A stretch of DNA of 64,000 nucleotides. Source: Pelecanus crispus. Its lineage: Eukaryota; Chordata; Aves; Pelecaniformes; Pelecanidae. The DNA is taken from NCBI RefSeq assembly GCF_030463565.1, contig NC_134645.1:1371501-1435500 (forward strand), written 5' to 3'. Numbering within the stretch: the first letter of the stretch is position 1; every line of letters starts with the position of its first letter. Positions 1,353 through 63,685 of the stretch are shown here, one piece after another. The translations under genes and the position numbers were made by a program. The notes beneath the pieces were generated by a model. That model did not search any database and was not told the DNA's origin. It saw only the letters and a program-made list of their open reading frames with translations.

Positions 1353-8521
<7,169 letters not shown>

Positions 8522-31900: not shown

Positions 31901-34900
31901 GGATGAGCTTAAAGGTCTTCTCCAACCTAAACAATTCTATGGTTCTATGAAGATATAACATCTCTCTGCATGTTTGCACCTGCAGATCTAATCCCGATTC
32001 ACCCGGCCCCAACACCCCCGATCCCACCGACAGCCTGCCGGTTCGCCCGGGCAAAAATTCCGACGCTGAAAGGCAACAGTCAAAAAAATTAGGATGGGCA
32101 AAATACAAACGACTTGTACCCCGGGTTTGTCAGGCTGCGTCCTCAAACGGAGCAAAATTCAAAATGCCGATCTCATAACCGTGCAGAGGCTGCCATTTTC
32201 TAGGCAATTTGGGCGTTTTACGATTACAAAACAGCAGCATCAGCCCCGAGTTAGTTTCTTCAGCCCCGCGGGCACTGGAAGGCATGGGTAACACCGGTGG
32301 GTTGGTTGCTTTGTTTCCAAACACGCAGCTGGGGTAAGGGGAATGAGAGGTCTTGCAGAAAACCACAACCCTGCTTTTTACGACCAGATTTAAAGAATCC
32401 AGATCCTTTATTCCTCATCCCATGGAAGGTCGGTCCGTTTTCCTCCCACCTCTCCTCTGCCCCAGAGAAACCCCTGGACAGGGCTGCGGCTAAGGGCAGG
32501 GATCCCATCGCGATCCAGACCCGAGACCTGCCTTAAATATTCCCTAAGAAGTGAGGATTTCCGCAAAGTCAGGCTAAACCAGGAAGGAAGCTACCGAGCG
32601 CTCCACAACCAACGCGCTGCAGCGTACCAAAGCTCGGCAAAGGCTTCGGCAGAGCCAAAGTGCCGGAGCTCACCTAGAGATGACACCCCTACGCGCGCCG
32701 GTCTGCGCGGCAGACCGAGAGGATGCCAACTAGCTCGCACCATCCGAAGGACATGGTTTAGTGGGCATGGGGGTGTTGGGTTGATGGTTGGACTGATGAT
32801 CTTAGAGGTCCTGTCCAACCTTAATGATTCTTGGTTTTTACTTTCATTAAAAATATCCCAGCCACCAAGCCAGGAAACATGAAGTTGCTACTCTCCCCTT
32901 AACTGGTTTAGTGGTGGACTTAGTAGTGTTAGGTTAATGGTTGGACTGGATGATCTTCAAGGTCTTTTCCAACCTAAACGATTCGATTATTCTAGGAGGT
33001 ATTACGGCTTTAGATAGTCCGCAGCAAGGATTCCTGCAGCCCCCGTGACTACCGAAAGCCTCGGCGCGCCACCTCCCCTGCCGCTAAGCAACTTTGCGAG
33101 AAACAATCCTGGATTTCACTCCCCTTACCTTGCGGGTCTGCTTTTTTGTAGGCGTTCCCAGCGTCCACGAAGCTGGTGGCCGAGTCGTGTTTGCTCTGCA
33201 GCTGCATGTGCAGCTTGGCCGCCTGACAAAACGCGTTTCCTGCAGCTGGGAGAGAAAAACGCACACCGACCCCATGTACCCCTCCGGCCCGGCAAGGAGC
33301 GGCGTCGCCGCAAAATGGCAAAGCGCACGTCGCTTCCCAGGAGCCAGAGAGGTTGAGAACCCCAAAATTGTTTGTGGCCAGGCACTGCTGCTCTGCCGGG
33401 GGCTGAGCCCGGCGCAGCGGGAGCATCCTACCTGCACGCTCATCCTCGGCAGCGCGCGCTCGCGACCAGCCGCGCCCTGCATCTACGGGATCAGCAAGGG
33501 GGATCCCTGGGATCTCACAATCTGTTGGATTTGACGTCCCACCCCAAGGTATTTCCTTGCTGAAGGGCAAAGCCAGGGCAGCGCCCCTTTAGCAGGCTTG
33601 CTTGCAGAATTACGAGCTTTCATTTTAGAACGGTAAAGTGCACCCTGCCTAATTTAACAGGAGGAACATTCAGGTCAGCCCCGCTCTGACCACCCTCCCG
33701 GTATTTAAATCATCGCAGGGCCGGGCAGAGCAGAGGAACTGCATCGCCATAGGGACCATCCCCATGGAAACAGCCTGGGATGTAAAACTCGGCTGCGATA
33801 ATTCGCAGGAAGCTGCTGGGGCACTCGCAGGTCACCCCGGCGTCAGCCACCCCCTCCGCAGCCCCCCCAACGGCGGGGGCTGTACTCACCGCTCCAGTTT
33901 TTGGCGATCTTGAACATGTTGGCAGCCCTGGTGTACATTTCGCAGGCTTCCTCCACCCTGGTGTTGCCCCTGAAACACAGCGAGAAAGCCCCTGATGCCG
34001 TGCCGGAACAAAACGCTGACCCCGAAACAGGATTGGGGCGTTGCAGCCCCGCGCGCTCGGGCGATGTGGCCCCGCCGGGCTTGGCGAGGCTGACTGCCCC
34101 CATTTTAAAGCGCGGGGCGAGCATCACGCCGCTCAGAGAGGGGAAAGCTGGATTTGGGGGACCGGCAGCCCCTCGCCCTCGCGGACCCTCTCCCAGCTCA
34201 TTACCAACACACGGCGGAGGCGGGGAGAAATTTGGTTAGCACCCAACAGGAGCCCCGCCGCCAAGGGGGAGCAGGCGGAGCTGGCAGGCACCAAATACCC
34301 AAGCGCCTGCTAGACAGGGGAGGCAGAGTTTTTCATTGCATAAAGCAGGGACAGAAAAGCAGAGGGAAAGCCACTCCTGAAATGGCAGCTCAGGATTTTG
34401 GCACGTTCCTGAAGAGTTTGGAGCCTGGAGCAAGCCCCCATCTGCTCTTTGACCTGGGTGCCTCCTTTTTGGGCAGGAGCAGCTGGTTTCTAAGAGTCTC
34501 ACGAGACGCTCGGCAAAAACACCTTGCAAACTCCAGCACACGACAAACCCCTGCGTCGCATAGGGAACACAAAGCAAATCAAAAATTAAGGAGACACCAG
34601 ACAACTCGCTGCCTGCCTAACGCACAGAGGTGCGTGCGCTCTGCGGCTCCCAACAAATAAATAAATCTCATCGGACCAAGCCCCGACACGCCAGCGGGTT
34701 TGCACCTCTGCATCTCCTGGTACCAAGAGAACAACGCGACGCGAGCCTGACTGCTTGGGTTTCGCATGTAACTCGGCTCCCCGAACCGCGTGATTCATTT
34801 ACCTGTTAATTATTATTATTATCTGTTGTTAATTAAACATAGATTCCTTCACGCAGCTCGTTACTGCCCTCTGTAGCGCACAGTCCTGCTGACCCCAGAA

Positions 34901-37900
34901 AGGGCCGGAGTGCAAGAGGTGACAACATTTCTTATTGCCCTTGTTTGCTCCCTTCCTCCTCCTGGCAGCTGACCACGTCTCATTTCTAAGCACAGGCAGT
35001 GGGGTTTTTTTGGGTTTTTTTTTGTTTTGGACCGCTCGCTCTCACTCTTGAAAGCCGCCTTTTGCGTGAGCTAACGCCAAAGGAGGCGGCGCAAGGGAAC
35101 GCTACACCCTACCAGGCGTCCAAAACAGTTTTCAGCTTTTTAGTCTCATTAAAAAAAAAACCCCAAAAACCACAAAGCAAAGCACTTGTGCAAGCTAATG
35201 GAGGTCTTCAGGAAGAAGCCCAGCTGGCAATAACGCTTTTGGCCAGGCACACAGCGGCCTGGGCACCCCCTTTCACCAGGAGGATGCCAAGAGCAAAGTC
35301 ACCCATCACCTCTTCTTCCATTTTAAAAGCCGTTTTTTCTTGCATCTATTTTTAGCCCAAGAAAATGAGAAATTCGCCTCTCGAAATCTCTGTGCCGGTT
35401 CACGCCAAGGATTTTCAGCAATTTGCTGCCCAGATTACGCCCCTGGAACGCGCCCTGCCCGATTAATCTGCCGGAGGCTGGGGAGGAATTTATTTTTAAA
35501 ACTTCTGCTTTTAAGGCTGCGGGCATTAGATTTTTCTAGGCTGTTATTTAGAAACATCAAGGCCTCCACGGCAGCATCACTCTGTAAATGCTCTTTTCTT
35601 AAAAATTTTTTTAAAATAATAAATACATTTTAAAAGCCAAGGCTGAGGTGGCCAAAAGCGCGAGTTTTTCAAATCCCTTCCAGGCACAGCTCTCACACCC
35701 CCAGGAATACCTGCTTTTAAACAAAAAGAGCTGGTAAAAAGGAAGCTGGTATGTTTTCGGGGGTGTCGCTCCCCCCCGGCAACCCCATCCCTCCGGAGGG
35801 TCTCCGTGCCGCGAGGCGAGGGCTCGGTGCCGCTGGGCAGAAAAAAAAAATCCTCTGTAAAACCCTGAGCGTGGTGCGAACTGCAAAAGCTCCAGAGCTG
35901 CAAAAGACCCCAGGGAGGATGGGGGGGCTTCCAGCCTCGCCCTTGGGTGCTGCTGCCGTCGCCAGGGGGGACGCTAGCCCTCAGCAGGGCGAACCCTGGC
36001 GACGCCGCGGCCGTGAGAGGATTACCCGCGGGTCTCCAGCGGGATAAAGCTGGGATGAGCCGAGCGCAGCCGCCGTGGAGGCGGAATTGGGGGGGTGGGG
36101 GGGCACAGGCAGGCGCCCCGAGCTGCAGAGGCTGAGCGGGCTCGTCACACCGCTGTGCCCACGGAGCGCCCGGGGGGCACGGCGTGGGGAAGGGGGGCAC
36201 GGCGTGGGGAAGGGGGGGCTGTGTGTGTCCCCCCCATGCCCTCACACAGCCCCCCCGCTGCCGAGGGACCCCCTTGCCCACGCCGGGGGGGCAGGAGCTG
36301 GGGCTGCCCCCCTGCAGGCACCCACGCACAGGGCCCAGCTCCCTTGCCAGTCCCCCGTTTTGCACACCTGCACCCCTCCTTTTGCACCCCCTCCCTTCGC
36401 ACACCTGCATCCCCCTTTTTGCAACCCCTCCCTCCGCACACCTGCACCCCTTTTGCACCCCTTCCCTTCATGTACCTTGCACACCCCCCTTTTTGCACCC
36501 CCTCCCTTTACACACCTTGCCAGTCCCCCGTTTTGCACACCTGCACCCCTCCTTCTGCACCCCCTCCCTTCGCACATCTGCACCCCTCCATTTGCACCCC
36601 CCTTCATGCACCTTGCAAGTCCCCCATTTTGCACCCCCTCCCTTCACACACCTTCCAAGTCCCCCTTTTTGCACCCTCTCCCTTTACACACTTTGCCAGT
36701 CCCCCGTTTTGCACACCTGCACCCCTCCTTTTGCACCCCCTCCCTTCGCACACCTGCATCCCCATTTTGCACCCCCTCCCTCCGCACACCTGCACCCCTT
36801 TTGCAACCCCACCCTTCAGGCACCTGACAAGTCCCCCATTTTGCAACCCCCTCCTTTGCACACCTTGCAAGTCCCCCATTTTGCAAGCCCCTCCCTTTGC
36901 ACACCTGCACCTTTTTACAACCTGCCCCTTCGCACAGCTGCACCCCTCCTTTTGCAACCTCACCCTTCAGGTACCTTGCAAGTTCCCCGTTTTGCACACC
37001 CGCACCCCCCTTTCTGCAACCCCTCTTTGCACACCTTTCCAGTCCCCCTTTCTGCACCCCCTTTCACACAACTGCACCCCTTTTTACAACCCCTGCCTTG
37101 CACACTTGCACCCCTCTTTCTGCACCCCCTCCCTTCATGCACCTTGCAAGTCCCCCATTTCGCACAGCTGCACCACTCCTATCACATCCACACTCCCTTT
37201 TTGCACCCCCTCTTTGCACACCAGCACCCCTTCATGTACCTTGCACACCCCCCTTTTTGCACCCCCTCCCTTTACACACTTTGCAAGTCCCCCATTTTGC
37301 ACATCTGCACCCTCTTTTACACCCCCTCCCTTCACACATCTGCACCCCTCCATTTGCACCCCCCCCTTCATGCATCTTGCAAGTAAGTCCCCCATTTTGC
37401 ACCCCCTCCCTTCACACACCTTCCAAGTCCCCCTTTTCGCACCCCCTCCCTCCGCACACCTTGCCAGTCCCCCGTTTTGCACACCTGCACCCCTCCTTCT
37501 GCACCCCCTCCCTTCATGCATCTGCACCCCCTTTTACACCCCCCTCTTCGTACACCTGCACCCCTCCATTTCCACCCCCCCATGCACCTTGCAAGCCCCC
37601 CATTTTGCACCCCCTCCCTTCACACACTTTGCCAGTCCGTTTTGCACATCTGCACCCCCCCTTTGCACACCTGCACCTATCTGCACCCCGTTTTTGCACC
37701 CCCTCCCTTCGCACACCTTGCCAGCCCCCCGTTTTGCAGACCTGCACCCCCCACCTGCACCCCCTTTTCCACCCCCCTTCACACACCTTGCCAGCCCCCG
37801 TTTTGCAGACCTGCACCCCCCCATCTGCACCCCCTCCCTTCGCACACCTGCACCCCCCCACCTGCACCCCCTTTTCCAGCCCCCCTCGCACACCTTGCCA

Positions 37901-39378
37901 GTCCCCCATTTTGCAGACCTGCACCCCCCTTCACACACCTGCACCCCCTTTTCCACCCCCCTTCGCACACCTTGCCAGCCTCCCGTTTTGCAGACCTGCA
38001 CCCCTCCTTCTGCACCCCCCCACACACCTGCACCCCATCTGCACCCCCTTTTTGCACCCCCTCCCTTCGCACACCTTGCCAGCCCCCCGTTTTGCAGACC
38101 TGCACCCCTCCTTCTGCACCCCCCACACACCTGCACCCCCTTTTCCACCCCCCCTTCGCACACCTTGCCAGCCCCCCGTTTTGCAGACCTGCACCCCTCC
38201 TTCTGCACCCCCCACACACCTGCACCCCATCTGCACCCCCTTTTTGCACCCCCTCCCTTCGCACACCTTGCCAGCCCATTTTGCACACCTGCACGCCTCC
38301 TTCTGCACCCCCCTTCACAGAGCTGCACCCCCTTTTCCACCCCCCTTCGCACACCTTGCCAGCCCCCCGTTTTGCAGACCTGCACCCCTCCTTCTGCACC
38401 CACACACACACCTGCACCCCCTTTTCCACCCCCCTTCGCACACCTTGCCAGCCCCCCATTTTGCAGACCTGCACCCCCCCATCTGCACCCCCTCCCTTCG
38501 CACACCTGCACCCCCCCACCTGCACCCCCTTTTCCAGCCCCCCTCACACACCTTGCCAGTCCCCCATTTTGCAGACCTGCACCCCCCTTCACACACCTGC
38601 ACCCCCTTTTCCACCCCCCTTCGCACACCTTGCCAGCCCCCCGTTTTGCAGACCTGCACCCCTCCTTCTGCACCCCCCCACACACCTGCACCCCCTTTTC
38701 CACCCCCCTTCGCACACCTTGCCAGCCTCCCGTTTTGCAGACCTGCACCCCTCCTTCTGCACCCCCCCACACACCTGCACCCCATCTGCACCCCCTTTTT
38801 GCACCCCCTCCCTTCGCACACCTTGCCAGCCCCCCGTTTTGCAGACCTGCACCCCTCCTTCTGCACCCCCCCACACACCTGCACCCCCTTTCCCACCCCC
38901 CCTTCGCACACCTTGCCAGCCCCCCGTTTTGCAGACCTGCACCCCTCCTTCTGCACCCCCCCACACACCTGCACCCCCTTTTCCACCCCCCCTTCGCACA
39001 CCTTGCCAGCCCCCCGTTTTGCAGACCTGCACCCCTCCTTCTGCACCCCCCACACACCTGCACCCCATCTGCACCCCCTTTTTGCACCCCCTCCCTTCGC
39101 ACACCTTGCCAGCCCATTTTGCACACCTGCACGCCTCCTTCTGCACCCCCCTTCACAGAGCTGCACCCCCTTTTCCACCCCCCTTCGCACACCTGCACCC
39201 CTCCCCCTGCACCCCCTCCCTTCACACGCCTGCACCCCCTTTTCCACCCCCCGTTTTGCACACCTGCACCCCCCGCTCACCCGAAGAGCCCCCGCAGGAA
39301 GGAGTGGGAGCCCTTCACCCGCTTCTCGGCCTCCGCCATCAGCTGCACGGCCTCCCGCTCCTTCCCCGAGCTGTCCAT
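25964..39378 (-). CDS. NAPB: NAPB, beta-soluble NSF attachment protein (beta-SNAP)
   Basis: Adaptor that binds assembled SNARE complexes and recruits the ATPase NSF to take them apart; the beta form is mainly neuronal. Exons in coding order (minus strand): 39378-39281, 33969-33890, 33245-33129, 31322-31276, 31149-31072, 30073-30018, 28988-28904, 27973-27869, 27576-27508, 27107-27057, 26068-25964. Total 297 codons including the stop, close to the mammalian length. It starts [20 protein letters not shown]; the [10 protein letters not shown] loop at residues ~24-33 is the membrane-contacting loop of SNAPs. Helical TPR-like repeats follow ([37 protein letters not shown]), and the end is [17 protein letters not shown], the conserved C-terminus that stimulates NSF. 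Every phase agrees. The exon 6 donor is GC (AACAG|gcaagt); the others are GT. Alpha-SNAP (NAPA) is excluded by the match to beta-SNAP and by the GZF1 neighbourhood. Confidence 0.97.
26193..26722. repeat. Polypurine (GGGGAAAAGGAAA)n tract in NAPB intron 10
   Basis: About 530 bases of almost pure G and A on the plus strand (C/T on the NAPB sense strand). The right half is a regular array of ggggaaaaggaaa and ggggaaaagaaaa units. The left part is more irregular. It is open in several frames on both strands, which is a composition effect. Confidence 0.93.
29205..29790 (+). mobile_element. CR1 LINE 3' fragment, double-tail form
   Basis: The longest CR1 copy here: body (gggtgttcagcctggggaag, then gagaggtgggggagtcccc), first tail near 29622, spacer, second tail ending near 29775. 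It lies in NAPB intron 6, antisense to the gene. Confidence 0.88.
31540..31951 (+). mobile_element. CR1 LINE 3' fragment, double-tail form
   Basis: Starts within the gggctcaagctgcaccagggg region of CR1 and carries the same first tail, spacer and second tail as the other copies, ending attctatggttctatg. It lies in NAPB intron 3. Confidence 0.88.
32750..32995 (+). mobile_element. CR1 LINE 3' fragment, double-tail form
   Basis: Truncated at ggacatggtttagtgggcat; both tail modules are present. It lies in NAPB intron 3, about 0.8 kb from the previous copy and in the same orientation. Confidence 0.85.
33970..36340 (-). other. NAPB: Gene-facing part of NAPB intron 1
   Basis: Ordinary intron sequence between exon 2 and the minisatellite. 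Nothing gene-like; open frames near 34.0-34.7 kb and 35.6-36.5 kb occur on both strands and have no recognisable domain. Confidence 0.5.
36340..39270. repeat. C-rich minisatellite, ~2.9 kb, in NAPB intron 1
   Basis: Tandem array built from short modules such as ttttgcaccccctcccttc, gcacaccttgccagccccc, gttttgcagacctgcacccc and ccttctgcacccc. In the right half these form larger units of about 90-140 bases with nearly identical copies; the left part is more diverged. On the NAPB sense strand it is G-rich, with many GGGG to GGGGGG runs. It ends about 10 bases before the exon 1 splice donor (39280-39279). Confidence 0.95.
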
Positions 39379-39540
39379 GGCCGCCGGCCTCCTTCCTCCT
39401 CCTCCTCCTCCTCTGGCGCGGCAGCGGCCGCGCGCACGGGGGCGGGGCGGGACGCGCCTTGCACGGGGCACGCGGCACGGTTCACGCTGCAAGATGTTGC
39501 ACGATGGGGGCTGCAAGCCCCCGCCGCTGCCCAATTCACC
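39281..39540 (-). promoter_or_regulatory. NAPB: NAPB CpG-rich promoter and exon 1
   Basis: About 200 bases of unique CpG-rich sequence hold exon 1 (ATG at 39378-39376) and the likely promoter. On the plus strand there is a cctcctcct run at 39391-39413 and a GC-box cluster (gggggcggggcgggac) near 39440. No TATA box is evident. Minisatellite sequence lies on both sides. The transcription start is inferred, not seen. Confidence 0.6.
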
Positions 39541-40998
39541 TTGCACGCTGCGCAACTCGTCTTGCAAGACGATTCGCGTTGCACCGTCGTGCACGTTGCA
39601 CCGTCGTGCACAATTCGTGTTGCACATTGCACGATTCGTGTTGCACGGTGCACAATTCTTGTTGCACGGTGCACAATTCACGTTGCAAGATGCTGCACAT
39701 TGCACGATTGGTGCTGCAAGACCCACCATGGCCCAATTCATGTTGCACGCTGCACAATTCACATTGCACGATGCACCGTGCACAATTCATGTTGCACGTT
39801 GCATGATTGGTGCTGCAAGACCCACCTTGCCCAATTCATGCTGCACGATGCACAATTCACAGTGCACGATGCACTGTGCACCATTCATGTTGCACAATTC
39901 ACGTTGCAAGATGCTGCACGTTGCACGATTGGTGCTGCAAGACCCACCGTTGCCCAATTCACCTTGCACGCTGCACAACTCAGCTTGCAAGATGCACGGT
40001 GCACGATTCGTGTTGTACCGTCGTGCACGTTGCACGATTCACGTTGCACGGTGCACGATTCACGTTGCAAGATGCTGCACGTTGCACAATTGGTGTTGCA
40101 ACACCCACGTTGCCCAATTCATGTCGCACATTGCACAATTTGTGTTGCACAGTGCACAATTCATGTTGCACAATTCCTGTTGCACAATGCAGAGTGCACA
40201 ATTCACACTGCAAGATGTTGCACGTTGCACAATTGGTGTTGCAACACCCACCTTGCCCAATTCATGTTGCACACTGCACAACTCATCTTGCAAGATGCAT
40301 GGTGCACATTGCATGATTCGTGTTGCACGATTCGTGTTGCACGGTGCACAATGCATGTTGCATGTTGCACAATTCACATTGCAAAATGCTGCACATTGCA
40401 CGATTGGTGCTGCAAGACCCACATTGCCCAATTCATGTTGCACAGTGCACAATTCGTGTTGCAAGATGTTGCACAGTGCACAATTCGTGTTGCAACAACC
40501 ACGTTGCCCAATTCACATTGCACATTGCCCAATTCATGTTGCAAGATGCACGTTGCATGATTTGTGTTGCACGCTGCACCGTGCACAATTCATGTTGCAC
40601 GCTGCACAATTCACACTGCGAGTTGTTGCATGTTTGGTGTGGCAAGACCCATGTTACCCAATTCATGTTGCACACTGCACAATTCGTGTTGCAAGATGCA
40701 CGGTGCACGATTTGTGTTGCACGTTACACAATTCACACTGCAAGTTGTTGCACGATTGGTGTTGCAAGACCCACATTGCCCAATTCATGTTGCACGATGC
40801 ACGTTGCACACTGCACAATTCACATTGCACGGTGCGTGATTCCTGGTGCAAGATGCATGCTGCACGACGCACGGTGCACAATGCCCAATGCATGCTGCAT
40901 GATGCACATAGCACGACGCACGTTGCACAATTCATGATGCACGACGCACAGTGCACCATTCACATTGCACGATTTGTGTTGCACAATGCATGATTCAT
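39470..40998. repeat. TTGCAC-based higher-order minisatellite upstream of NAPB
   Basis: About 1.5 kb made of short modules (ttgcacgctgcac, aattcatgttgcac, aattcacgttgcac). A recurring marker, gattggtgctgcaagacccac, appears with drift near 39702, 39801, 39919, 40082, 40224, 40396, 40626 and 40747, giving larger units of about 100-170 bases. A remnant continues after a CR1 insertion, at about 41203-41235. Confidence 0.93.
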
Positions 40999-44130: not shown

Positions 44131-47100
44131 ATGGAGCCTTTTTCTCTCTGTGATCTCAGGCTCCTGGCAGAAAACAAAGCTATTCAGAGGATCCTCTGCC
44201 CCATGGCCGCACAGCTCTGCCACCTAATCCTCGCCCTGGAATGGGAAGATGGGATTTGTCAGGCCTTTCCCCATTTAGGGGAGAACGCAGAAAAATTAGC
44301 CAAAGCCACAGAAGAACTCGCTTCTGTTGCAAGAAGGTAAGTTTTCCGGCTGTCTCCTGGGCAGATTTGGGGGCTGGGAAGGAGGAGGAAGGGATGGCAA
44401 AGAACCTGGCAGGGAGCCTGCCTCCCCTGCTTGGTGCTCCCTGCCTGCACGCCGCCAGAGAGGTGGGAACGTGAGGAGGAAAGGATGGGGAACGTGAGGT
44501 GGGTAATAGGATTAAAGGAAAGGGAGAGATGGGACAAAGCAGGGATATATGCTTGGAAGGGATGTGACGAAACAAGCAAAACCTCAACGAGCAATGTTTA
44601 AGCTACTTTGATTAAAAAATAATCCAGCCACCAAGCCAGGAAACATGAAATTAATTATTCCTCTCCCCTTAACTGGTTTAGTGATGGACTTGGTAGTGTT
44701 AGGTTAATGGTTGGACTGGATGAGCTTAAAGGTCTTTTCCAACCTAAATGATTCTATGATAAACACGGTTTAAAACAATAGTCAGACAAGTGACTGAATG
44801 CTTCAGTGAATTTACTGAATGCTTCAGTAAACAGGAGCCCAAAAGCAGAGATTAGGCACTGGCCACTGAGTTACTCTGCTGTTACAGCTAGGGCCTGGTA
44901 GATAGCAGACACCCATCTTAATCACAGCCACTGCAAAAGGTTCCGAAACAGTTTGCAAATACAGCTAAAATCCAGTTCAAGCCCAGTTAAGGTTTGGCAC
45001 AGCTAATTGTTGCAATAAAGCCCGAGGCCAGCGCGCCATCCTTGCTGGTACTCACAGGACGGCGAAGAGCTGAGCCCGGCGGCTTCTGTTCCAGGCTGGC
45101 TGAAGAGTCCGGCGATGAGGTGTTCGAGGAGGAGATGCGTCCTGCAGCCGAGTCTCTCGTCCTGGCAGGGAGGTGCACACTGCTGGCAGCCCACAAGCTC
45201 CAGGTCCAGCCGGAGAGCCCCAGCCACAGGCAGGAGCTGGCTGTGTCGGCGAAGAGGGTCTTAACAGAGACGGTGAAGGTAACAGCGGAGGGGGGCAGTG
45301 CCCCTGTCAGGGTTTAGCCCCAGCCAGCAGCTCAGCACCACGCAGCCGCTCGCTCACTGCCCCTGCCCTGGTGGGACAGGGGAGAGAATCGGAGGAGTGA
45401 GAGTGAGAAACACTCCTGGGGTGAGATAAGAACAGGTTAATAATTGAAATAAAGTAAAATGGTAATGATAATAGTAACAATATAACAATAATAATATCCA
45501 AAGCAAGTGATGCACAGTGCAATTGCTCACCACCTGCCGACCGATGCCCAGCCAGCTCCCAGCAGCGATCGCTGCTCCCCGGCCAACCCCCCCCCCCCAG
45601 TTTCTATACTGCCCATGACGCCCTATGGTATGGAACAGCCCTTGGGGCAGTTGGGGTCAGCTCTCCTGGCTGTGTCCCCCTCCCTTCTTGTGCCCCTGGC
45701 AGAGCATGGGAAGCTGAAAAGTCCTTGACTGGCATAAGCAGTACTGAGCAACAACTAAACCATCAGCGTGTTATCAGCATTCTTCTCCTACTAAATCCAA
45801 AACACAGCACTATGCCAGCTGCTAGGAAGAAAATTAACTCTATTCCAGCCGAAACCAGGACAGCCCCCCACCAGGACAGGGGCTGGGGGGAAACTCTAGC
45901 TGGAGCAATGGTTATTTCTTCACCACATGCTCGCTAGGGCAGGTCTGCTGAGCAAAACGCACCTCTTCTCTTCCCTCCAAGGGCTGGGGCGTCATCTTGG
46001 CTGCACAAGGGATGAAATAGTCAACAGGGATTCTTGAGCCTTAGCCACTCTGACCAGTTTTTCTCATGTTTTTTTCTTTTTCTGGTTAGATCCTTCAGAT
46101 CGAAGATGCTGCTGGGGCAAGGAGGATAATTCAGGCTGCCAGCTGGCTTTTGGAGCACCTGAGCATGCTGCAGGATGCAGGGGACATGCCAGGACTGCTG
46201 GCTGCTTTCCGGGCCTTCTCTGAGGCCTTGCTTCTGCTGAGCAATCTGACAGCAAAGCGCCTCGAGGAACTCCAAGACTGTCCTCGACAGAAGAGCTTGG
46301 CCCAAACTTTGCAGCTCCTTCAGAAGTGCATTCCTTTGCTCCATGCAGCCAAGCATGGCGATCTTAAACGCTCCTGGGATCAGCAAGTCAACCTCTCCAC
46401 AGACTACACTTTCCAGCTGACAGAGAGGACCATCAAGAAGCTCGCTTCCCTGCTCGTTGACAACACGGGCAGCGAGGAGCCACGGGACAGAAGCGGGACC
46501 TTCTCCCAGCACACGAGCAGGCTGCTGGCTCTCCTCTCTCGCCCAGACCCAGCACACCTCTCCGACAGCGAGCTCAGTGCTCACGTGGAAGCGGTCATTT
46601 TCTACTGCATGCTTCTAGCAGATTCCTCCAGGCCAGATCTGAAGCTGGACCTGGTAAAACGTTGCTGGGTTCTGCTACGGCTGAGGAAGAGCATCTGCAG
46701 CCACGTAAGCCAGCAGGAGGAATGGCCAGGGCAAAGCTGGGGAGAAAGCAGCCTGGAGAAGGAATGCCACACCATGAGAGAGGAGGTGGAGACTCTTGAT
46801 CAGGCAGCGCTCACAGCTACTCTGTGCCAAATCCTCGACACCTTCTTTGTGGGTAAGGAGCCCCTGAGGCAGTTAGTTGACAATGCCCTTGCCGGTACAG
46901 GGTGTTTTCCGGCAGGACAAGGAGACTTTTTAAAGAAGCTTCAGCCCTTCACTGCCACCTTCTTCAACCACGCCCAGCAGATGCTCAGAGTGGCAGACTT
47001 TGTTCTGGCCAGGTGCACCAAAACCCAAACCGCAAGAGAAATCGGAGAGCAGGTAGAGTATCTGAAAAGACTCCTCGCCAGTCTCCCTCCACTGCTCACA

Positions 47101-50100
47101 GAAATTAGCAGAAATACAGCCCAGATGAGCGCTGCTGAGCAGCTGCAGTCCTTGTACCGCACGTGGGCTGGAACAACAGAAAGCCTCTTGCAGTGTTTTG
47201 AGGAGACGGTCAGCATGCGTGAATTCCTCAAGCTGTCCGTCCAGGAAATGGCCAAGCACAGGGAATGGTGTGAAAAGGCCCTGGAAAGTCAGGAGCCTGA
47301 GAAGCTCTCTTGGCATGCGACTCGCCTCACCAGCTGGGCTCGGTGGGTGGTTGAAGCTACCACCAGGTACGTGGACAGAGCCACAGACCCCATTTTCAGG
47401 AATGGCTTGCTGGTTTGGGTTGAGCAACTGGCGAACTCCATCCTTGAGCTGAAAGCAATCGCAACCCTTTGTCTGGAGAGACTCTCCTGCCTCCAAACTA
47501 GGGATGTCTTTTCAAAGGCAGCAAGCTGCCTGATGGATGCTGCTCACCGTGTCCAGGATGGGCTGGATGGGTCCAACCACCCAGATATCCTCAGCCCTCT
47601 GCGGGCACAAGTGCGTAGCACCGATGTTGCAAAGACGCATGAACTCAGCCCGTCGCACACTGGGCTAAAAACCGTTACCGATGAGGCCACGTTGCAAGAA
47701 GACATCTTCAGTCGTCCGTCCCCACGAGCAGGTAACTTACACCTGGATGTTGTTCCGAGAAAAGGAGATACGCACCCCGTCATTACGGCTCTCTTAGCGG
47801 CAACAAGAGCCCGTGATACGGCAGCCGTCAACGCCGCTTGCTCCGCCTTGCTCGAGCTCTCCAACCGCTGTATCAATGCGGCAAAGGAAGCGCTGCCTGT
47901 TGCTGAGCCTGCCCAGATGGAGACGCTGGGGCAGCACCAGAAGATCGTATTACTGACACCACGCGTTATTAGCCTGGCCAGGGAAACAGCCCCGAGGCAG
48001 CTTCAGCGTCCAAGCAGATTTCTCCAAATGGCGCTCATGCTCTCAGAAAGGATCTGTGAGACCAAAGAGTGCCTGGCAGCCGTGGCAGGCTCTTGGTATA
48101 GTCTGTCTCAGCAAGTATTTGGCTTTATCTTGTCTGCTGACTTTCTGAGAGGCAAACAGGCTTTGGACGAGACCGTGATGGGTTTAGCAGGAGCAGTTCA
48201 GTTAGCAGGAGACATTGCAAGCGTAGCCTGTACTAAGGGAAATCCCATTTCCCCCGATATCTGGGAGAGCTTTCTACATGTCCAAGCCAAGTTTTCACGT
48301 GCTCAGATGAGCACCAAAGCGTTACTTGAGAAAGCAGCATCCTTCAAGGGCTCCTGCAGGGTGGGAAAGGCCAGCCTGGAGCTGCACTGCATCCAGTGGG
48401 CCGTCAGCATGCGCGTCCTGCTGGGTGCCGTGGATCGGTTCATAGGCAAGGACGTCCTGTTCCTGAGGGAGCTGAGGAACGCCGTGAAGAACAAGCTTTG
48501 CTCGCAGAGCCTCTTGGCTGCCGTGTCCGAGAACTCCCTGAGGCTGCAGGAGGCTGCCCGGCTCTCTTACTTATCCTGCACCGAAGACTGTGGTCGCAGT
48601 GAAATCCTAGCACTCAGGGAGGAGATAAAGGTGCTAATGGAAGCACTGCTGGATGCCTCCAATACCCTCTCGGTCTCCTCACTGTCTACTCCCAGCTTGT
48701 ACATTCGCTTCGAGCTCCTGCAGAGAGACCTGGCCCTCAGGGCCAAGGCACTATTGCTCCACCTGGAGAAGGTCAATTCCGAGCACCTGCAGGTCATCCA
48801 AGATGTCATTGGACCAGCCCTGTCCCCCCTCTCTCAAGAGGAGAGGGAGAGGAGCAAACAGGCCTTTGAAGAGAAGGCAGGTCGGCTACTGGCTAACGTT
48901 CAGTGGGTCAAAACCACCCTCCAAGAGGTTTTGGAGGCCAGCACTCAACTGCTGTCGCAGGCAAACTTGCTCTCCGTCGCAGACCACCTCCTGCTCCTCA
49001 CGTCTGAGGCGGTGGGCAGCGCCAAGCGGCTCTTCCAGAGCCACCAGGACAAGGGGCATCTCCACCTAGACAGCACCGTCTGGTACTGGTCAGCAAACGC
49101 GCACTACCTCGTCACGCAGCTTCGGGCTGTCCGGGGCATCAGTGGAGACGTCGTGCGGCTCATCAGACAACGCTTGCAGAACGCAGGGGATCAGCGCTCT
49201 CCAAAACAACCCAACAGCACGACCGAGCTCTTCCCAGCCCGAGAGCTTGACGCTGTGAGCCACGGCAAGTCAGCAGAAACGTGCCCAAGCAGGAGCAGAC
49301 GGGCAAGCGGAGCTACCAGGGAGGCACGTGAAATGGTACAGTAGCTTCTTCCCCCATCAATGCTTACTGCAGGGTGATGGTCAGGGCTGTCAGTCAGTCC
49401 TGCTACCCACAGCACAGAGCATTAAGTGATGCTGGCAGGGATCTCTGGAGGTCAATAGTCCAACCCTCTGGCCACCTTCAAAGTTAGATCAGGTTGCTGG
49501 CTGCCCTATTCAGCTGAGTTCTGGATATCTGATCTGACGGACACACTCACGTAAACAAACCCATCTCCACAATGCTGTTTCTGAGGCGCAGAGGGCTGTA
49601 CTGCTCTCCCTCCCCTGAAACACTCCCTGCCTCTGCTCAGCTCCCCACAACCACCCTTTGGGTGTACCAGCGACTCCGCTCCCGCAACAACCGCTGTCGG
49701 TTGTCAGGAGCTGGCAAAGGCTTCAGCAACGCTATCCAGATCGGTCAAAGCTGTTTACAGCACTTAATCGTACTTCTCAACTGCGGGTGCTGTCAGCTCA
49801 CTTGACAGCTACCACCCATTTGGAGATAGCTCCAGGAGGCAATGGCACGGGGTGTTTTGGATTTGACAGTCGCGCTGTGGGTGGAGGCAGGGGAGAGAAG
49901 GGCTGGTTGGGAAGGCAGTGCAGACCCACCGAGGTGGCGGGCAGCTCTCCCCGTCTCCTTTACTCACCAGAAAGCCACTTCAGAAAGACACAGGCGGAGT
50001 CTTCTCAGCGTCGGTGCGTCTGCACGCTCCAGACTTCAAGTCTGTTCAGTTACTGTCTCGACAGCACCAGAACGGTCCTCCCAGCGTCTCCCTTGCCAGC

Positions 50101-52837
50101 AGCCCTGTGAAGCATGAGAGAGAAGACAGTGACACGTGGGAGGGTGGCCCCAGCAAGATGTCCCAGGTCACCAAGGACATGGCAACAAGGATGCTTCACA
50201 TGACTCAGTTCCTGAGGAAGAAGGGCCCCATCACGGTATGGAGCATTTCACCCCCTCCACCCCAGCACTTTAATAGGCATAAAGAAAATATTTTTTTTTC
50301 CTTGAGAGCACAAAGCCAGTGACGGGGCTGCCCAGTGCCTGCTGAAACCCCTGCATTACCTGGCTCTTATAAGAGTGGCACCGACTGCATTTGTCCAAAG
50401 CACTAGAAATTACTTCCTCCTGACTAGATGTGAACCTGGCATCCAGTCCTTTCCTTGTTTCAGAATACATACAGGCTTCCTGGACGCTCCCCTGTCTTGC
50501 AGAAAAAGTGGTCTTTTTTTCCTCCTTCTCTCCCCAAACACATATATTTCTATTTCGTTTCAGAGCAAGGACCAGCTTGTTGCCTGCGCGAGGCAAATTG
50601 CTTCCGACGGGCAGCTGTTTGTGAAATTTGGCCGGATCATTGCAAAGCACTGCCTGGACGCGAGATGCTCCGCAGAGCTGCTGTGTGCCGCAGAGCAGAC
50701 CCACACCATCAGCAGCCAGCTCGGCATCGTGGCCAGGTGAGTTGCCAGGGTCAAGGACAATCTCTCCAAAGGTTGGCGGCCCCCTTCTCAGAGAGATAGA
50801 ATCATCAAATCATTTAGGTTGGAAAAGACCTTTAACATCATCCAGTCCAACCATTAACCCAACACTGCCAAGTCCACCACTAAACCAGTTAAGGGGAGAG
50901 GAATAATTTCGTGTTTCCTGGCTTGGTGGCTGGATTATTTTTTGATGAAAGTAAAAACTAGGAATCACTAAGGTTGGAAAGGATCTCCAAGATCATCAGT
51001 CCAACCATCAACCCAGCACCCCCATGCCCACTAAACCATGTCCCCAAGTGCCACGTCTGCCCATTTTTTGAACACTTCCAGGCATGGTGACTCTACCACC
51101 TCTCTGGGCAGCCTGTTCCAATGCCTGACTACCTTTTCCATGAAGAAATTTTTCCTGATATCCAATCTAAACCTCCCCTGATGCAACTTGAGCCCGTTTC
51201 CTCTTGTCCTATCGCTAGCTACTTGGGAGATGTGCATGGTGGTCTCCAGAGGTCCTTGCTGGATCTGGGTGTAGCCCTTAGAGTTCAGTTACAATTCAGC
51301 GGGCTCCCGCTCCTTTTCCTCTTGCTTTAAACAGCCCTTTCCTCCCCTGGTTTGCCTGCCTCTACGGAAACCTGCTCTGACAGCACAGGGGACAATCTTC
51401 TTGTTTTGGAGTAACTGACAGTTCTGGCCACGCAGGGGAGGCACGATGTCTGACGCTCTTCCAGTAAAATCCTTTAAAATGTCTTTTAAGGGTAAAAGCA
51501 GTCACTGCAGAGAGCAAGTCATCTTGTGAGCTGCTCGTGAGCAACGCGCAGAACCTAATTCAAGCGGTTTTGCATGTTCTGAAGGCAGCCGAGGCAGCAT
51601 GTATCAAAGTAAGTTAACGCTGATGGCATCAAATGTTTTGCAAGGTGGAGCCCACGCTGCGGGCAGCTCCTACAGCGAAGTCTGGTTACGGGGGTGGGAG
51701 CCGGCTGCCGTGGGACCTCTGTCAACTCCAGCTGGGGGTAAACATTCTTGCTGTGATGTTTTTCTTTTATGCCTTTCTGCCTTGTTTCCAAAGCCCACTA
51801 CGCATCCTTTCCAGGCATTGAATCTGCTCTGTCACTGCTACCAACTCTGAAGTCATCTTCAGCTGGTCCATATCCCATTTCATTTTTGGATAGGGGAGCA
51901 GCAGCATCTCGTTGGAGGCCTTTATTTGGAAATAGTCCATGTCAGTCTCAGCCTTTATGTTGTCTCAAAATGAGCTTTGATCGAAACTCCCAAGAGCTTC
52001 CCTTGCAGCTGCCAAGATGGCTGACTGATCCAACTGCAAATAGTTGGTGAGAACAGACTTTATCTGAAAGCACTCAGAAAACAAGTGCAAATACAGCCCA
52101 GAAAACAAGTGCAAACACAGCCAGACTCTCCACTGCTGCAGTTGTTCAGCGTGTTGCCTTCGCCTCCTGCGTAATCCTACAAATTTTGCTGAGCACGTCT
52201 TTTTGAAAGAGACAGTTTTGATTAGAATCCCATTTGATGGAGAATCAGCCACAAGCATGGAAAAGCTCATCCCGTGGTTAGTTGCCCAGACTGTGAAAAA
52301 CACACTACACTACATCTATTTTTTACTTTGCTGATGTCAGCCTGAAGTAACTAGCCATTCTTTCATCTTGATTGTCTAGACTACAAGTCCTTTATGACCT
52401 GGCTTTTTCTCTTTGGAAATTTCCCTATTATCAATAAACTAACTATACTGTATTCCTTTCGTCTCTCCGTAAGCAGGTTTTTAAGCACTTTTAAGCATTT
52501 TAAGCATTTTTGTAAGCATGAACAGGTAGAAGTGCCACACTGGTCTCACGCATACATTGATATATTCAGGCTTTTATATTGTTTAAGGTATTTTAAACTA
52601 GTTCGTGTACAACAATATATTAAAGCATGCAAATATTTTGTCATCTCCTAACAGGGTTTGCAACAGCCCCCGCCTGACTCTGAAGAAGAAGAAGTAGCTG
52701 CTTTTTGCATGCAGTGGAGAAAAAAACTGTTGTGGCACAGAGCCAAGGAGTCTTTAAACTCAGACAGGGATGAATTAGGGCTCCGCAAGACTCGGGCAAG
52801 GGCTGAACCCACCCTGACGGCTATGGTGCAAGAATGA
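44131..52837 (+). CDS. Divergent vinculin/alpha-catenin superfamily protein
   Basis: Predicted helical-bundle scaffold of the vinculin/alpha-catenin type, proteins that link adhesion complexes to actin. Exons: 44131-44336, 45095-45278, 46090-~49335, ~50042-50235, 50564-50736, 51491-51608, 52655-52837; roughly 1,400 residues. Similarity: the exon 2/3 junction and start of exon 3 ([24 protein letters not shown]) match the vinculin segment [20 protein letters not shown]; about 47120-47420 resembles the alpha-catenin M region; the exon ending at 50235 ([15 protein letters not shown]) resembles alpha-catenin (MTDFTRGKGPL); [13 protein letters not shown] near 51530 and [12 protein letters not shown] in the last exon match the vinculin tail (MLVHNAQNLMQSV, LRWVRKTPWYQ). 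The left edge of the fourth exon and the exact donor of the large exon are unsure. It is not VCL, CTNNA1-3 or CTNNAL1 as I know them. No frame breaks. Confidence 0.8.
44609..44760 (+). mobile_element. CR1 LINE 3' end
   Basis: Starts in the spacer (aaaaataatccagccacc) and carries the second tail module, ending aaatgattctatgat. It lies in intron 1 of the vinculin-like gene. Confidence 0.82.
45305..45862. mobile_element. Solo LTR, 5-bp target duplication (copy 1)
   Basis: Starts tgtcagggtttagcccc and ends gaaaccaggaca, imperfect inverted ends of TG...CA type. It is flanked by gcccc at 45300-45304 and 45863-45867. It shares its whole length with the copy at 54119. An A/T-rich stretch (aataataatatcc) lies in the middle. 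The 5-bp duplication fits ERVL-type elements in birds; the assignment needs a repeat library. It fills most of an 811-bp intron and starts 26 bases after the splice donor. Confidence 0.85.
46090..49335 (+). CDS. Giant internal exon of the vinculin-like gene (~3.2 kb)
   Basis: Acceptor ttctggttag at 46080-46089, then about 1,082 uninterrupted codons. The preferred donor is ATG|gtacag at 49335; alternatives are gct|gtgagc near 49254 and caa|gtcagc near 49268. If unspliced, the frame stops at TAG 49342-49344. In vinculin and alpha-catenins the equivalent region is cut by many introns. The stretch is leucine-rich and helical, with no signal peptide or membrane segment seen. Confidence 0.75.
50798..51226 (-). 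mobile_element. CR1 LINE 3' fragment, double-tail form, reverse orientation
   Basis: Reverse complement of the same arrangement: tail, spacer (ggcttggtggctggatta), second tail, then body (ccacctctctgggcagcctg). It lies in an intron of the vinculin-like gene. Confidence 0.88.
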
Positions 52838-57796: not shown

Positions 57797-60700
57797 CTAA
57801 CAAAACGGTGAAGCGGTTGGATCGAAAGTCTTGAAAACATCTTTTAATGACTTATCATCTGATTCCCCATTCGGATCGCTCTCCTGCGTCTGAGTTACCT
57901 GTCCAGGCTGCCTAACCTGCCTCGGGTCGCTGTACTGCGGTCTGATTAATCCCGATAAAGCTTGGATAGGAAGATTATGCACCGCCGGTGCGGCGCTGGA
58001 GTGTTTAGCCTGAGATTTACTGGTGCTATTTGCTTTATCTGAAGTAGCTTCTGCCGATCCTTCAGTATTTTTTTCCACGTTCGAGGCAGCCTTCTGCAGC
58101 GATGTATCTTCTGAGAGACTCGGTTCATTTTTACCAGAGTTTTTCAAAATACTTTTTTTCTGGTTCTCTCCGTTCTCTCCTGAACTAGCTGGAGCTGTGT
58201 CCAATGCCGAGCTGTGATCTCTCGGATCATACAAACTAATCCCGCTCAGTATCGAGCCCGGAGTTCCCAGCCTAACGCCACTCGATGATAATTTGGGTGC
58301 GTACGGAGGCAGAGCATCCGGGTCAGGTTTAGCAGTCGCGGCTTCCGAGGGCTGCGACGAGGCGGCAGCAGATCTGGCCAGGCGGGGGTCAAACTTCGGA
58401 GGGTGCGAATCCTTCGCGACTCCGTGATGCGTATCTGCGCTCGACAGTCTGTGGAGTCTGGGATCGACGTTTTTTTGTAAGCGAGGATCTCCTAATTTGC
58501 TTGAGCTACTGGCATGCGAATCCGCAGATGGATCCAAGTAGCCGCTCCTGCCCGTTAAGCTGTTTTTTGCCTTCGCAGCTAGCCGCGGGTCAGCTGGCAT
58601 GGCATTTGGATGGGGATCGTTTTTCAAATTCCGCAGTTTATTAAGTCTCTGGTCAGCGATGAGTGGAGGAAGAGGTAAATTGATTGAAGAGACGGGGTCC
58701 GGCTTGGGCAAAGGTATTGGGAGCAAGTCTTCGGGTGCCCATACAATATGCTTAGCAAAGTTTGGTTTCATCAGGGTAACATCCATTTTTATGTGGCTGA
58801 ACTGCCTAAGCTGAGATCGGGGATCTCTTAACGTTACACCAGGCAAAGGTTCCAACGGTATCAGGAAAGCTCGCTCTCTCAGCTCTCTTTCCGAGTCCTC
58901 TTCGTCATCATCCATCCCTTTTTGCTTGACCTTGACTCCAGTGTGCGCGTGGTGTAAATCTAGCTTTGCTCCCCCAAGGGAGGAGCTGGCGTGACCGCCC
59001 TCGCTGACCTTGTGCATCCTGGGATCTCGTACAAGCCGTGGGTCCAGGGACGCGGATTCGGAAGGCTTTCTGGGGTTGGACCTTGGAGAGGCCCGCAGTC
59101 TCGGGTCAGCAGCCTGAGGCCCTGCGCCTTTTTCTTTTGCCAGCCTCGGATCAGTAGGCATACCAAGCATGTGCTGCTCCGTGGAATGTTGTTGCCGATT
59201 CCTAAAATTTTCGCTTTGTTTCTTTAAGGTTTTTAGTATTGATTTAACACTGCTCCCCTCTTCCTCTTCACTACTGGAATACCAGTTGACATTGTCATCT
59301 TAAAAAAAAAAAAAGATTATTCAAGCAAATGATCACCAGGGAATACAACACATTTATTCACAATAAAAGGTAACTTCTCAGTAAAATCAAACTGAAAAGA
59401 CCTGATACTACACCATCACTCCCTGTACTATAACAACTGCAATCTAAAATGATAAAAATCAATTTGAATGAAGAACTGACACAAAGAAACTGTAGCTAGT
59501 TGAGATACTCCCAAACTCTGCTGCATTCTGCCTACATATCTCTGTTGATATGAGTCTGGGAAAATAACCTGCTTTCAAACAATTATTTCTACCAGTACTA
59601 GTAAAAAAAAAAATTAAAATCTCAGTCTTGATGAAAGGGACCTTCATTGTGGGATGGTAGAACAAAAAGTAAAGTGGCACCTTACAGTAGTCTTAAAAAC
59701 AGATAAATTACAAATGTGGAATTTGCTGCCTTATCACTATCCAAATCACAAGGTTTTGGGGAGAGGTCAAGATTCAGGAAGGGAAGAAATACGAATACCT
59801 CATTTTAAAGGATAAATTCTCAACTACCTTCTGCAATTTACTGGCAAGCCTTATCAACACAGCTGCGTGCTCAGGTCCACATCCTAAACTTGCCTACTCG
59901 CTGAAGGAGACTAGTGGTCTACTCTGGCTCAATAAAACGAGAAATGAAGGCGAAACCCACCACCATCACTGTCTAATGCACAATAACGCATGTTTCCTCA
60001 ACGCTTCTTGTACCACACAAGTATTCAACGACAGGGAGTGGCGTGCTGTCGGAGGCAGCTAATAGGAATATTCTTCCGTTACACTGCTTTCCGAAAGCCC
60101 TCTAGACGGGAGGACCAGTCACTCCAAAGCTCTGGTGAGAAGTCTGCAGAGGTCACTCTGGTTTTGTATGTACCCTGAAGCATTTCCAGCTTTCTCTCAT
60201 CATCTGATCAGAATTATATTGGCAATGTCCTCGAAATCATTTGATACAGCAACTGCCTTTTGGTCAGACAGAAGATGCATTTCTGGTCACAGAACCTAGC
60301 AGCCTCAGAAAAGGGTGCGGCAGGGAGCAAGCCAAGGGACAAACGTGCTCTGCGGGGCTGAAGCTGATCTGCAGGCTCACTGCTCTCCATTGTCCAGGTG
60401 ACAGAAGAGACACGCAGACTGAACACTGCAAATTTCGGTTATCACAGAGGAAAAAAAATACTCCTCTAGAGAAACAGAATATGCAGAAACGATCAAGAGG
60501 CACAACTGAATAAACAGAACCAAAGATGCACTTGTACTGGCAGTTAGAAATAACAACCTTTCTGTTTCAACCAGGGATTTTAAGAAGTAACTGAGTTAAC
60601 AGAACCTTTTAAAAGTACAAACTATATCCAAAAATTACCCACAGATCTTTCTACTTGGAACTGGAATGCAGCAACTAAGCGTATGCTAAAATCCTGGAAC

Positions 60701-63685
60701 AAGCTGGGAAGGAAAGCAAGTATATTCAGCTGAAAATATTATTTGAGTTGGTACTTGCAGGTTCACAACAACTGTGAATGGTAACGTGATGAAAAGCCAA
60801 GTCAACACATTTGTTCCAGGCTAATACATGGTCAATAAGTATGTTTAGAACAGTAACAAAATTATCTTTACCTTCATCTTTGCTCATTGCCCTCTGACCC
60901 TGGCTGCTGACAGAGTCTCCGTCTCTTTGATGCTTTTGACTAAGTCTCACATAAAGGGCTTTCTGCATTGCTGGAAGAAAATCCGGTACGTTAATGGCTG
61001 GTTTATGGCCCATATGGCTACTCATGCAGTCCGACTCGCTTCCACCTTGATGCGACTCTTGAGCCATGAGGTGAGCCTGGTGATCTGTAAATTCTCCATG
61101 CCATGTTCCATCTGCAATATAAAAAAAACAGTTAGCAGCTAATCTATACAAGCTTTTACAGCAGAGGAGATAAAACATAAAACACAATCAAGCAAAACTA
61201 ATGTGACTTATATTACATGACTGGAAAGCATCAGACAAAAGAGCCTATACACTGCAGACGTTCCAGGAGGTTTGGCTTTCTATCCAAACTTCTTGCAGCT
61301 GCTCCGCTTTGGAGCCGTGATGCTTTAATGCCGCGCAACTGCGAAGCACCATATCAAGGAACGAGGATTTTGAAATGTCCTTACCACCAGAGTTATTAGC
61401 TGGCTGGAAGTTATGAACGGCTTGATGAGAATAGTAATTGTCATAGAAATCAGCTGGGTTCTGAATAGGCTCGTAATTCATATTCGGCTGCCGTTCACCA
61501 GGCATCTGCTGGTATTGTGGCCCCGGAGGACAATGATTCTCTCTCGGCATATTCACCATATGTCCTTGAACTCCTGGGGCATTGTAAGATCCACCGAGAC
61601 CTGGCGGCGTGAGAGGTGGCCCACCTTGCTGTCCTTGCATAGGCATACCAGTCTGGTTCTGCGGTCCCAGAAAGCCTGGCGGAACACCCTGCATAGGAGG
61701 ACTCTGCGGCATCCCTGGGCCCTGAGGCCCCGCGCATGGATGATGTCCAGGAGAACCTGGGTGCATCGGCGGCCCGTTATGTCCTTGTGACATGCCGGGT
61801 CCCGGCCCTGGACTTGAACCTGGATTATACATATGCTGAGAATGGGGGTCATTTCCCTGAAACGGTGGTCTTGGTGGTGATGCGCTGTTATAGAAGGTCG
61901 GTGGCCTGTAGGCGAAAAAAAATTGGCGACTCAAATTTCGCACCTACAAAGATCAACAGCCTGTTGGCTACCTCCTCCCCCCTCCTCACTCTTACAGATG
62001 TCTGTTCGTACTTATTTGATCTTAAGTTGGATAAAAATCTGAAAGAAGCAAAATAATTTTCAAAGAGAATAACTATGTACGTTACACATGGCAGAGCTTG
62101 TCTGGAAGTAGAACATTTTTTCCAGTATTAGCACATGCAGAACTGGACATTTGCTGCCACTAAGAGTTTTAAACATCCCAAGGCCAACCATCTCCATCAG
62201 GACTGTCTGGCTTCGGTCAAGAAAAAGCTAACTATAAAAAGAATTCAGAAGGAATGAACTTTGCTCAACCTGCAAATGGAGATAGGCAAGGCAGGCACAG
62301 AGCCAAAACAAAAGCCAATGGAGTGGCTTTCTGGAAGGTCAAGGCTCAGTAAGTTCTCTTCTATGGAAAGCATTAAATAAGTAAATAATTATGACAGCCA
62401 ATATTTGACAGATCATTAACTTAGCAATATACTCGGAAGTATATACTTCTGACAAACAAAAATATTTGTTTAAATATTTATGCAGCCATGTTTTAAGGAG
62501 AGTTCTACGCACAGTTCTAAAACCTACTTTTTTCCAATTTTGTGTGCTAAATCCACGGTAGGCTTCACAACTATTTCAAAGAGAGACGGGATTTTCTTGT
62601 ATTCTCCTGAAGGATCTTGATAATTTTCTATATCAGACTCGGAAAACGGATATTGCTCTGGCGGGGTTGGCAGAAGCCCAACACCTGGTGGTGGCTTAGG
62701 GAGAGGAACAATGCCACGCTTTCTGAGTTCCTCCAGTTCTTTCTCATCTTCGTTTTGTGGTTCCTCCTCAGTATTCAAAACCTAGAACAAAGCAACGTAA
62801 CAAACACTTAATTTCGCAGTACACGCAATTCAATTTAGTCTTGCACTTTCCGCTTACATATAATCACCTGCTAAAATACTACTATATATTGACATCAAAC
62901 TCAGATGAATTATAACTCTGTATTACTTGTTCTGCAGGACACAGATTCACAGCCAGGAAGCAAACTATTTCTGTAATCAGGAAGGGACAATTTCACACAA
63001 GTCCATTTCCTTCAGACAGTAATTTTAAGTAAGAGAAACTGAAGGACTTATTCTAAGATTCATTAACTTAATTAAATTCAGGCCACTTTTCTGTTAAGGC
63101 CTGTTGTACAGTAACTGCAGAGAGACAAATATCCAAGTTAACACAAAGGTCAAGATTTCATGAATCATTCAGAGGAGGCACCTCATTCCTTTCTCCACCC
63201 CGAGTGCAGAAGTCAGTCAGATGGTATCTAATTTCTAGGCAGCTAAAGGAAAACAACATAAAAGCCACGCTTCTTGTTACAGAGTACATGAAAATTTCCA
63301 CAGAAAAGGATGCAAAAGAAAAGTTCAAGAGCAGAAACTTGAGTTGTGAAAATAAATGAGTGATATAGCTAAAAAATAACTGAATAACTGATGGCAAGGG
63401 GAATTCCTGGTATTGAACCTGGTCACAGACTTACTGTGCTAAAAAGCAACAGGGAAGCTTAACATCGTTACTGTTTAGCATCACATTCCCCGAGAATCCC
63501 ATGGAAATTTCTAGCAACCTCCCCCCTATTCTTTCAAGCAACAAACCTTGCGTTTACAGACCAAGTGCTGCTCACCTTATCCAACAGCTCTTTTGTTTCT
63601 GCAGTCAGGGGAGCATGAGAAAATTTGCACTTATCTCCTTGATAGCATTTCGCTCCTGTGTGGTAGAACTTGCAAGGGAATTCAT
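57797..63685 (-). CDS. ZC3H6: ZC3H6, CCCH zinc-finger protein 6 (3' part; gene continues beyond the window)
   Basis: Nuclear, probably RNA-associated protein of the ZC3H4/ZC3H6/ZC3H8 family; ZC3H4 is known to restrict non-coding transcription, the role of ZC3H6 is less clear. Exons in coding order (minus): 63685-63576, 62781-62528, 61905-61385, 61111-60872, 59298-57797; about 875 codons, all phases compatible. The first exon holds a complete C-x8-C-x5-C-x3-H finger ([20 protein letters not shown]), the last of the array. Then [20 protein letters not shown] and [20 protein letters not shown], a Pro/Gly-rich region (61.4-61.9 kb), an [13 protein letters not shown] acidic motif near 59270, repeated DPRL motifs, and the end [17 protein letters not shown]3H4 shares several motifs but differs in the third finger and the Pro-rich part. 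Fingers 1 and 2 and the start lie past 64000. Confidence 0.93.

Follow-up and report, generated by a model that had tools for sequence, protein, structure and literature searches.

The window analysed here is a stretch of 64,000 nucleotides from the pelican Pelecanus crispus (NC_134645.1, positions 1,371,501 to 1,435,500 of the forward strand; coordinates below are those of the window). Its subject is a plus-strand gene at 44131-52837 that is almost certainly the bird VINAC1, the orthologue of rodent Vinac1, in identity as well as in class. An earlier note had placed an unnamed, divergent vinculin/alpha-catenin family gene of about 1,400 residues at this position; both ends it gave are exact, and our model, with seven coding exons, yields a product of 1,426 residues. 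Along the window lie two GZF1-like BTB/zinc-finger pieces, GZF1 (plus strand), NAPB (minus), VINAC1 (plus) and a ZC3H6-like gene (minus), the neighbours being named by eye, with Pfam backing only BTB, C2H2 and SNAP. The coding exons of VINAC1 are as follows.

44131..44336, plus strand: coding exon 1, with the start codon; begins the VH1 head and matches the stork, hoatzin and alligator N termini
45095..45278, plus strand: coding exon 2, VH1 head, up to residue 130
46090..49335, plus strand: coding exon 3 (giant), residues 131-1212, with the remaining VH1 head, the M force-sensing region, four extra M-like modules and the start of the linker
50065..50235, plus strand: coding exon 4, end of the linker; the actin-binding tail starts at about 50137
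50564..50736, plus strand: coding exon 5, tail, containing Ile1324 (50726-50728)
51491..51608, plus strand: coding exon 6, tail, containing Val1328 (51492-51494)
52655..52837, plus strand: coding exon 7, family signature 2 and the stop

All six introns of this model run from GT to AG, the reading frames join, and the 1,426 codons contain no internal stop. Exon 3 alone spans 3,246 bases (1,082 codons). GC content is 0.60, 0.44 and 0.65 at the three codon positions versus 0.49 in the introns. The protein is 87% identical to its stork and 54% identical to its alligator counterpart over nearly the full length, and the gene is therefore conserved; among the best 120 of the 236 matches of a first protein search, identity to birds ranges from 58 to 88%. 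The gene is real and intact. Because an AG acceptor ends at 44124, directly 5' of exon 1, a further 5' exon probably precedes it. The DNA alone offers several candidate AG acceptors for exon 4, of which 50065 was chosen by the hoatzin protein. Partial emu and tinamou protein records coincide with exon 3 alone, and many other bird records among the best 120 are similarly about 1,073 residues long. At 52835-52906 the stop falls about 25 codons earlier than in stork, shag and hoatzin, and the sequence past it still resembles theirs; this C-terminal end of about 25 residues is also missing in alligator and rat. Sequence resembling the bird retroelement CR1, as judged by eye, lies in introns 1 and 5 (44690-44760 and 50800-51300).

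The earlier note had described a family pattern in the head, middle and tail, and at the level of sequence this pattern is far above chance. The Pfam Vinculin profile (PF01044) matches with E=1.5e-68 and 232.5 bits against a curated cut-off of 38.1. A search of solved structures aligned vinculin with three stretches (2.7e-35) and alpha-catenin with two (1.6e-29): the head at residues 15-218 (vinculin), the middle at 375-623 (vinculin) or, including the head, at 53-596 (CTNNA1), and the tail at 1232-1367. The VH1 and M helical-bundle folds by which the superfamily is recognized are present in the predicted structure, and the M region is alpha-catenin-like in both sequence and predicted structure. 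Structures were compared by domain-level matches; whole-model matches, which have a high root mean square deviation because the arrangement of bundles differs, were set aside. From sequence and predicted structure, the order of parts is VH1 head, M force-sensing region, four M-type modules, disordered linker, actin-binding tail and class-specific C terminus. The four added modules, which are found already in cnidarian relatives, and the linker account for the excess length of the protein. The following positions were obtained, those of the modules from profile comparison and structure.

47575..47604, plus strand: family signature 1, an HPDILSPLR-type motif
47776..48087, plus strand: extra M-like module R1 (residues 693-796)
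48088..48450, plus strand: extra M-like module R2 (residues 797-917)
48451..48780, plus strand: extra M-like module R3 (residues 918-1027)
48784..49140, plus strand: extra M-like module R4 (residues 1029-1147)
49198..49335, plus strand: predicted disordered linker (exon 3 model residues 1037-1082, predicted local distance difference test score <50), running on into exon 4
52769-52786 (core), plus strand: family signature 2 in exon 7, QWRK...DELGLRK...PTL

Both class motifs, HPDILSPLR and DxLGLR, are present in the window protein. A loose form of signature 1 occurs in 195 of 225 proteins from the VINAC searches and loose signature 2 (DxLGLR) in 109 of the 225 (about 106 of the 225 reach the tail), versus none of 67 vinculin records for either, although both motifs were picked post hoc, after the sequences had been viewed, and many of the 67 records are isoforms. 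As far as the searches reach, the two motifs seem to be new, as does the ancestral rod of five M modules. At the position of alpha-catenin R551, the window protein has W549; the six invertebrate VINACs compared have Arg here and the seven vertebrate ones Trp, His or Gln, possibly an alteration of the M-region switch in vertebrates.

A tree was built from 787 alignment columns in which vinculin and alpha-catenin are also represented, comprising 25 VINACs, 6 vinculins, 2 alpha-catenins and 1 alpha-catulin. Its root was not inferred, CTNNAL1 and CTNNA1 are long branches, CTNNA2 and CTNNA3 were left out, two outgroup rows are sequences without a database source, and alpha-catulin is represented by one such sequence. 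The 25 VINACs form one branch (100/99) with vinculin, alpha-catenin and alpha-catulin outside it, and the window protein groups with rodent Vinac1, not with any of these three. Without the two unsourced outgroup rows, the VINAC branch is recovered at 100/97 with head and M and at 87/73 with the tail alone. Cnidarians diverge first inside the branch, and the 14 vertebrate VINACs group at 100/100, as do the vinculins. The order within VINACs roughly follows that of species, with exceptions: dog and gibbon pair rather than rat and gibbon (97/88), and stork and zebra finch pair to the exclusion of the window bird (93/87). The fork uniting alligator with birds (54/18) and one in the deuterostome-protostome part (78/44) are weak. 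The description of the gene as a divergent family member is borne out by the profile and structure matches and by the separate branch. The statement that it is none of VCL, CTNNA1-3 or CTNNAL1 holds for VCL, CTNNA1 and the unsourced CTNNAL1, against which distinctness was judged; CTNNA2 was compared by PDB fragments only, and CTNNA3 was left out of the comparison.

The best 120 matches of the first search are birds of many orders, one alligator and one sea turtle. With the alligator tail as query, 107 matches were obtained, 49 of which carry the names of mammals (among them marsupials, whales, pig, dog, horse, elephant, bats, rodents, rabbits, monkeys and a gibbon); other vertebrates among them are lizards, snakes, turtles, birds, lungfish, bowfin, reedfish and a mormyrid. 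Amphibians and monotremes are absent from the names of the 107, and neither human nor any great ape appears by name, the rows being 90% clusters that could conceal one. The tail of a 1,661-residue relative gave 101 matches including anemones, amphioxus, acorn worms, echinoderms, Lingula, a nemertean and bivalves. Vinculins rank lower in that list, some from the same animals as the VINACs, and acorn worms and Lingula carry both. The idea that this is an additional vertebrate member lost in mammals is ruled out by the 49 mammalian matches and by relatives in cnidarians, echinoderms, hemichordates, amphioxus, a brachiopod, a nemertean and bivalves. We conclude from sequence comparison that the VINAC class is older than the cnidarian-bilaterian split. 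In the lungfish gene model, a segment at about residues 75-800, after the first part of the VINAC sequence and before the remainder, resembles a LINE endonuclease/reverse transcriptase on inspection by eye.

Rat Vinac1 aligns with the window protein over its full length (34.4% identity, E=0), falls among the mammals within the VINAC branch and has the same tail contacts. The gene is not unnamed: Vinac1 or "Vinculin/alpha-catenin family member 1" is the name of 4 of the 107 alligator-tail matches (rat, Peromyscus, Phodopus and Apodemus), and two published gene lists catalogue the human locus under the pseudogene name VINAC1P. The earlier note held that its proposal would fall if the reciprocal best hit were a named gene; Vinac1 in substance supplies this, although no formal reciprocal search was made. 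Bird records among the best 120 are mostly "uncharacterized protein" or automatically named CTNA1, CTNA2 or VINC, and these names for VINAC1 are corrected here. The impression in the earlier note that mammals lack the gene thus fits human, not mammals as a whole.

Alpha-catenin I792 and V796 touch actin, and altering them weakens binding (PMC7588230). In our alignment, Ile1324 of the window protein corresponds to vinculin I997 and alpha-catenin I792, and Val1328 to vinculin V1001 and alpha-catenin V796; the Ile is kept in 58 and the Val in all 60 of 60 aligned rows. The severest alpha-catenin site, L785, is Thr in the window protein, as in vinculin. The protein has the C-terminal actin-binding domain with conserved contact residues that marks the superfamily. 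Because the Ile1324 and Val1328 contacts are conserved, the tail very probably binds F-actin directly. The best overall explanation, and one we consider probable, is that VINAC1, with its VH1 head, M rod and actin-binding tail, is a long tension-bearing link to F-actin. The VH1 head would be anchored by an adhesion or membrane partner, in either the talin or the beta-catenin manner as far as the sequence tells, and the tail would grip F-actin; since the M-module rod lies between the two, it would carry the tension. By analogy with the alpha-catenin M region and the talin rod, its bundles might open one by one, baring hidden binding helices. For the function as a multi-module force-bearing linker, we see the balance as even. 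The fast divergence in vertebrates (34% identity to rat and the range among birds given above) and the human pseudogene name suggest a specialized rather than an essential role.

Alternatively, VINAC could be the vertebrate counterpart of insect Spitting Image (Spt) and Sry-alpha, that is, an actin regulator at the cortex or cleavage furrow and not at adhesion sites. Sry-alpha and Spt were described in 2013 as a distinct F-actin-binding clade of the superfamily (PMC3820746), and the legend to Fig. S2 there lists uncharacterised zebrafish and Xenopus proteins in this clade. At E<=0.01, the Pfam profile Serendipity_A (PF05482) is found in 5 of 30 VINACs and in none of 21 vinculins. However, the best of these matches (E=1.3e-8, 34.4 bits) is slightly under the Pfam cut-off of 35, the other 25 VINACs have none at this threshold, and the window protein, like human CTNNA1 and VCL, has no match at E<=1. 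The comparison was made without an insect sequence and with CTNNA1 as the sole alpha-catenin control, and, by the account in PMC3820746, alignment of the insect proteins is confined to the middle sequences. On these sequences, it is plausible that VINAC is the counterpart of Sry-alpha/Spt; that it acts in their manner seems to us a close question, leaning slightly to the negative. A broader proposal is that VINAC is a fourth, animal-wide class of the superfamily in which the alpha-catenin force-sensing module was amplified to a five-copy rod before the cnidarian-bilaterian split. It would sense tension over a long travel on cortical F-actin, with Spt and Sry-alpha, which regulate cellularisation in insects, as reduced descendants and with loss in the human line. 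Taken as a whole, this proposal is tentative and less likely than not.

It is unlikely that VINAC1 is a focal adhesion protein of the vinculin type that talin recruits and whose extra modules serve as a spacer. Against vinculins the tail reaches 76-84 bits, slightly above the 75 bits for CTNNA1, and its Thr/Ile/Val contact pattern is identical to that of vinculin, but vinculin forms a clade of its own, acorn worms and Lingula own both proteins, and the window C terminus lacks the vinculin end and carries a different motif. The position of vinculin A50 is uninformative on talin binding because it is also Ala in alpha-catenin. Very improbable is a divergent alpha-catenin acting in the cadherin complex via beta-catenin, for example the lost ctnna4 postulated after genome duplications (PMC3933685). 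The alpha-catenin-like M region, the rank of CTNNA1 as the top non-VINAC row across head and M (85.1 bits) and the many partial bird records auto-named CTNA1 or CTNA2 would agree with such a paralogue. However, the tree sets the window protein outside alpha-catenin, beside cnidarian and echinoderm relatives, and VINAC is therefore long older than the vertebrate duplications. The VINAC-specific modules and motifs and, by eye, a more vinculin-like first helix also argue against an alpha-catenin, which is refuted on phylogeny unless long branches mislead; identity with the lost ctnna4 is ruled out by the age of the class, as judged from invertebrate relatives and the tree. Finally, a decaying gene or pseudogene in P. 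crispus, which would accord with the human pseudogene name, the fast divergence among birds and the early stop, is scarcely credible: every codon is open, each splice site is canonical, the tail contacts and the two signatures are preserved, and the dropped end is missing in alligator and rat too.

The immediate neighbours of VINAC1 are the following.

25967..39786, minus strand: exons of NAPB (beta-SNAP), left neighbour; Pfam SNAP in two of three scanned open reading frames, NAPB name by eye
57800..61943, minus strand: ZC3H6-like, right neighbour, two open reading frames, read by eye, no Pfam match

The ZC3H6 flank may be common to the window and mouse, whose Vinac1 would lie close to Zc3h6. 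An exon of mouse Vinac1 is listed at chr2:129,038,002 (PMC8560743). The expected flanking genes TTL and POLR1B have no match within the window, and an Rfam scan of the window gave nothing at gathering scores. The BTB and zinc-finger pieces at 1275-4771, whose BTB part is 45% identical to the downstream GZF1, are a probable tandem GZF1 paralogue. A long degenerate minisatellite, C-rich and then TGCAC-rich, lies in or beside the NAPB 5' end (36300-41000), with a GC skew of about -0.5 at 36001-40000, and a perfect 18-base unit is repeated 20 times between NAPB and VINAC1 (41442-41801).

In searches of an openly licensed library, we found no functional study of Vinac1, VINAC1P or Gm14025; the papers found mention them in gene lists or tables, apart from one in which the match is a grant number. 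A 2022 review (PMC9569426) divides the family into vinculin, alpha-catenins and alpha-catulin, and in a search of its text no word beginning with VINAC turned up. A fourth class that sea anemones share with birds and with many mammals, and pseudogene-named in human, is a gap in adhesion biology that is directly testable in mouse, chicken and Nematostella. With its M modules in tandem, the rod offers a natural experiment in lengthening a force sensor.

In comparison with known systems, the window protein shares with vinculin the tail contact pattern and tail score, but differs from it in the extra bundles after the M region, the C-terminal end and the separate clade. It differs from alpha-catenin (CTNNA1) in four extra M-like modules, the C terminus, Thr at L785 and, again, a separate clade. 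Insect Sry-alpha and Spt resemble VINACs in the weak Pfam match and the fish and frog proteins of their clade, and differ in aligning to the middle only and in that the window protein lacks the PF05482 match. A 2026 paper (PMC13245172) assigns ctenophore proteins to the "uncharacterized alpha-catenin-like clade" of Miller et al. 2013, which likewise stands next to alpha-catenin and vinculin among early animals and may be the same class as VINAC. The closest counterpart is Vinac1 of rodents (human VINAC1P), by full-length alignment, tail contacts and placement in the branch; the window gene has diverged strongly from it, and in P. crispus the protein ends about 25 residues before that of stork.
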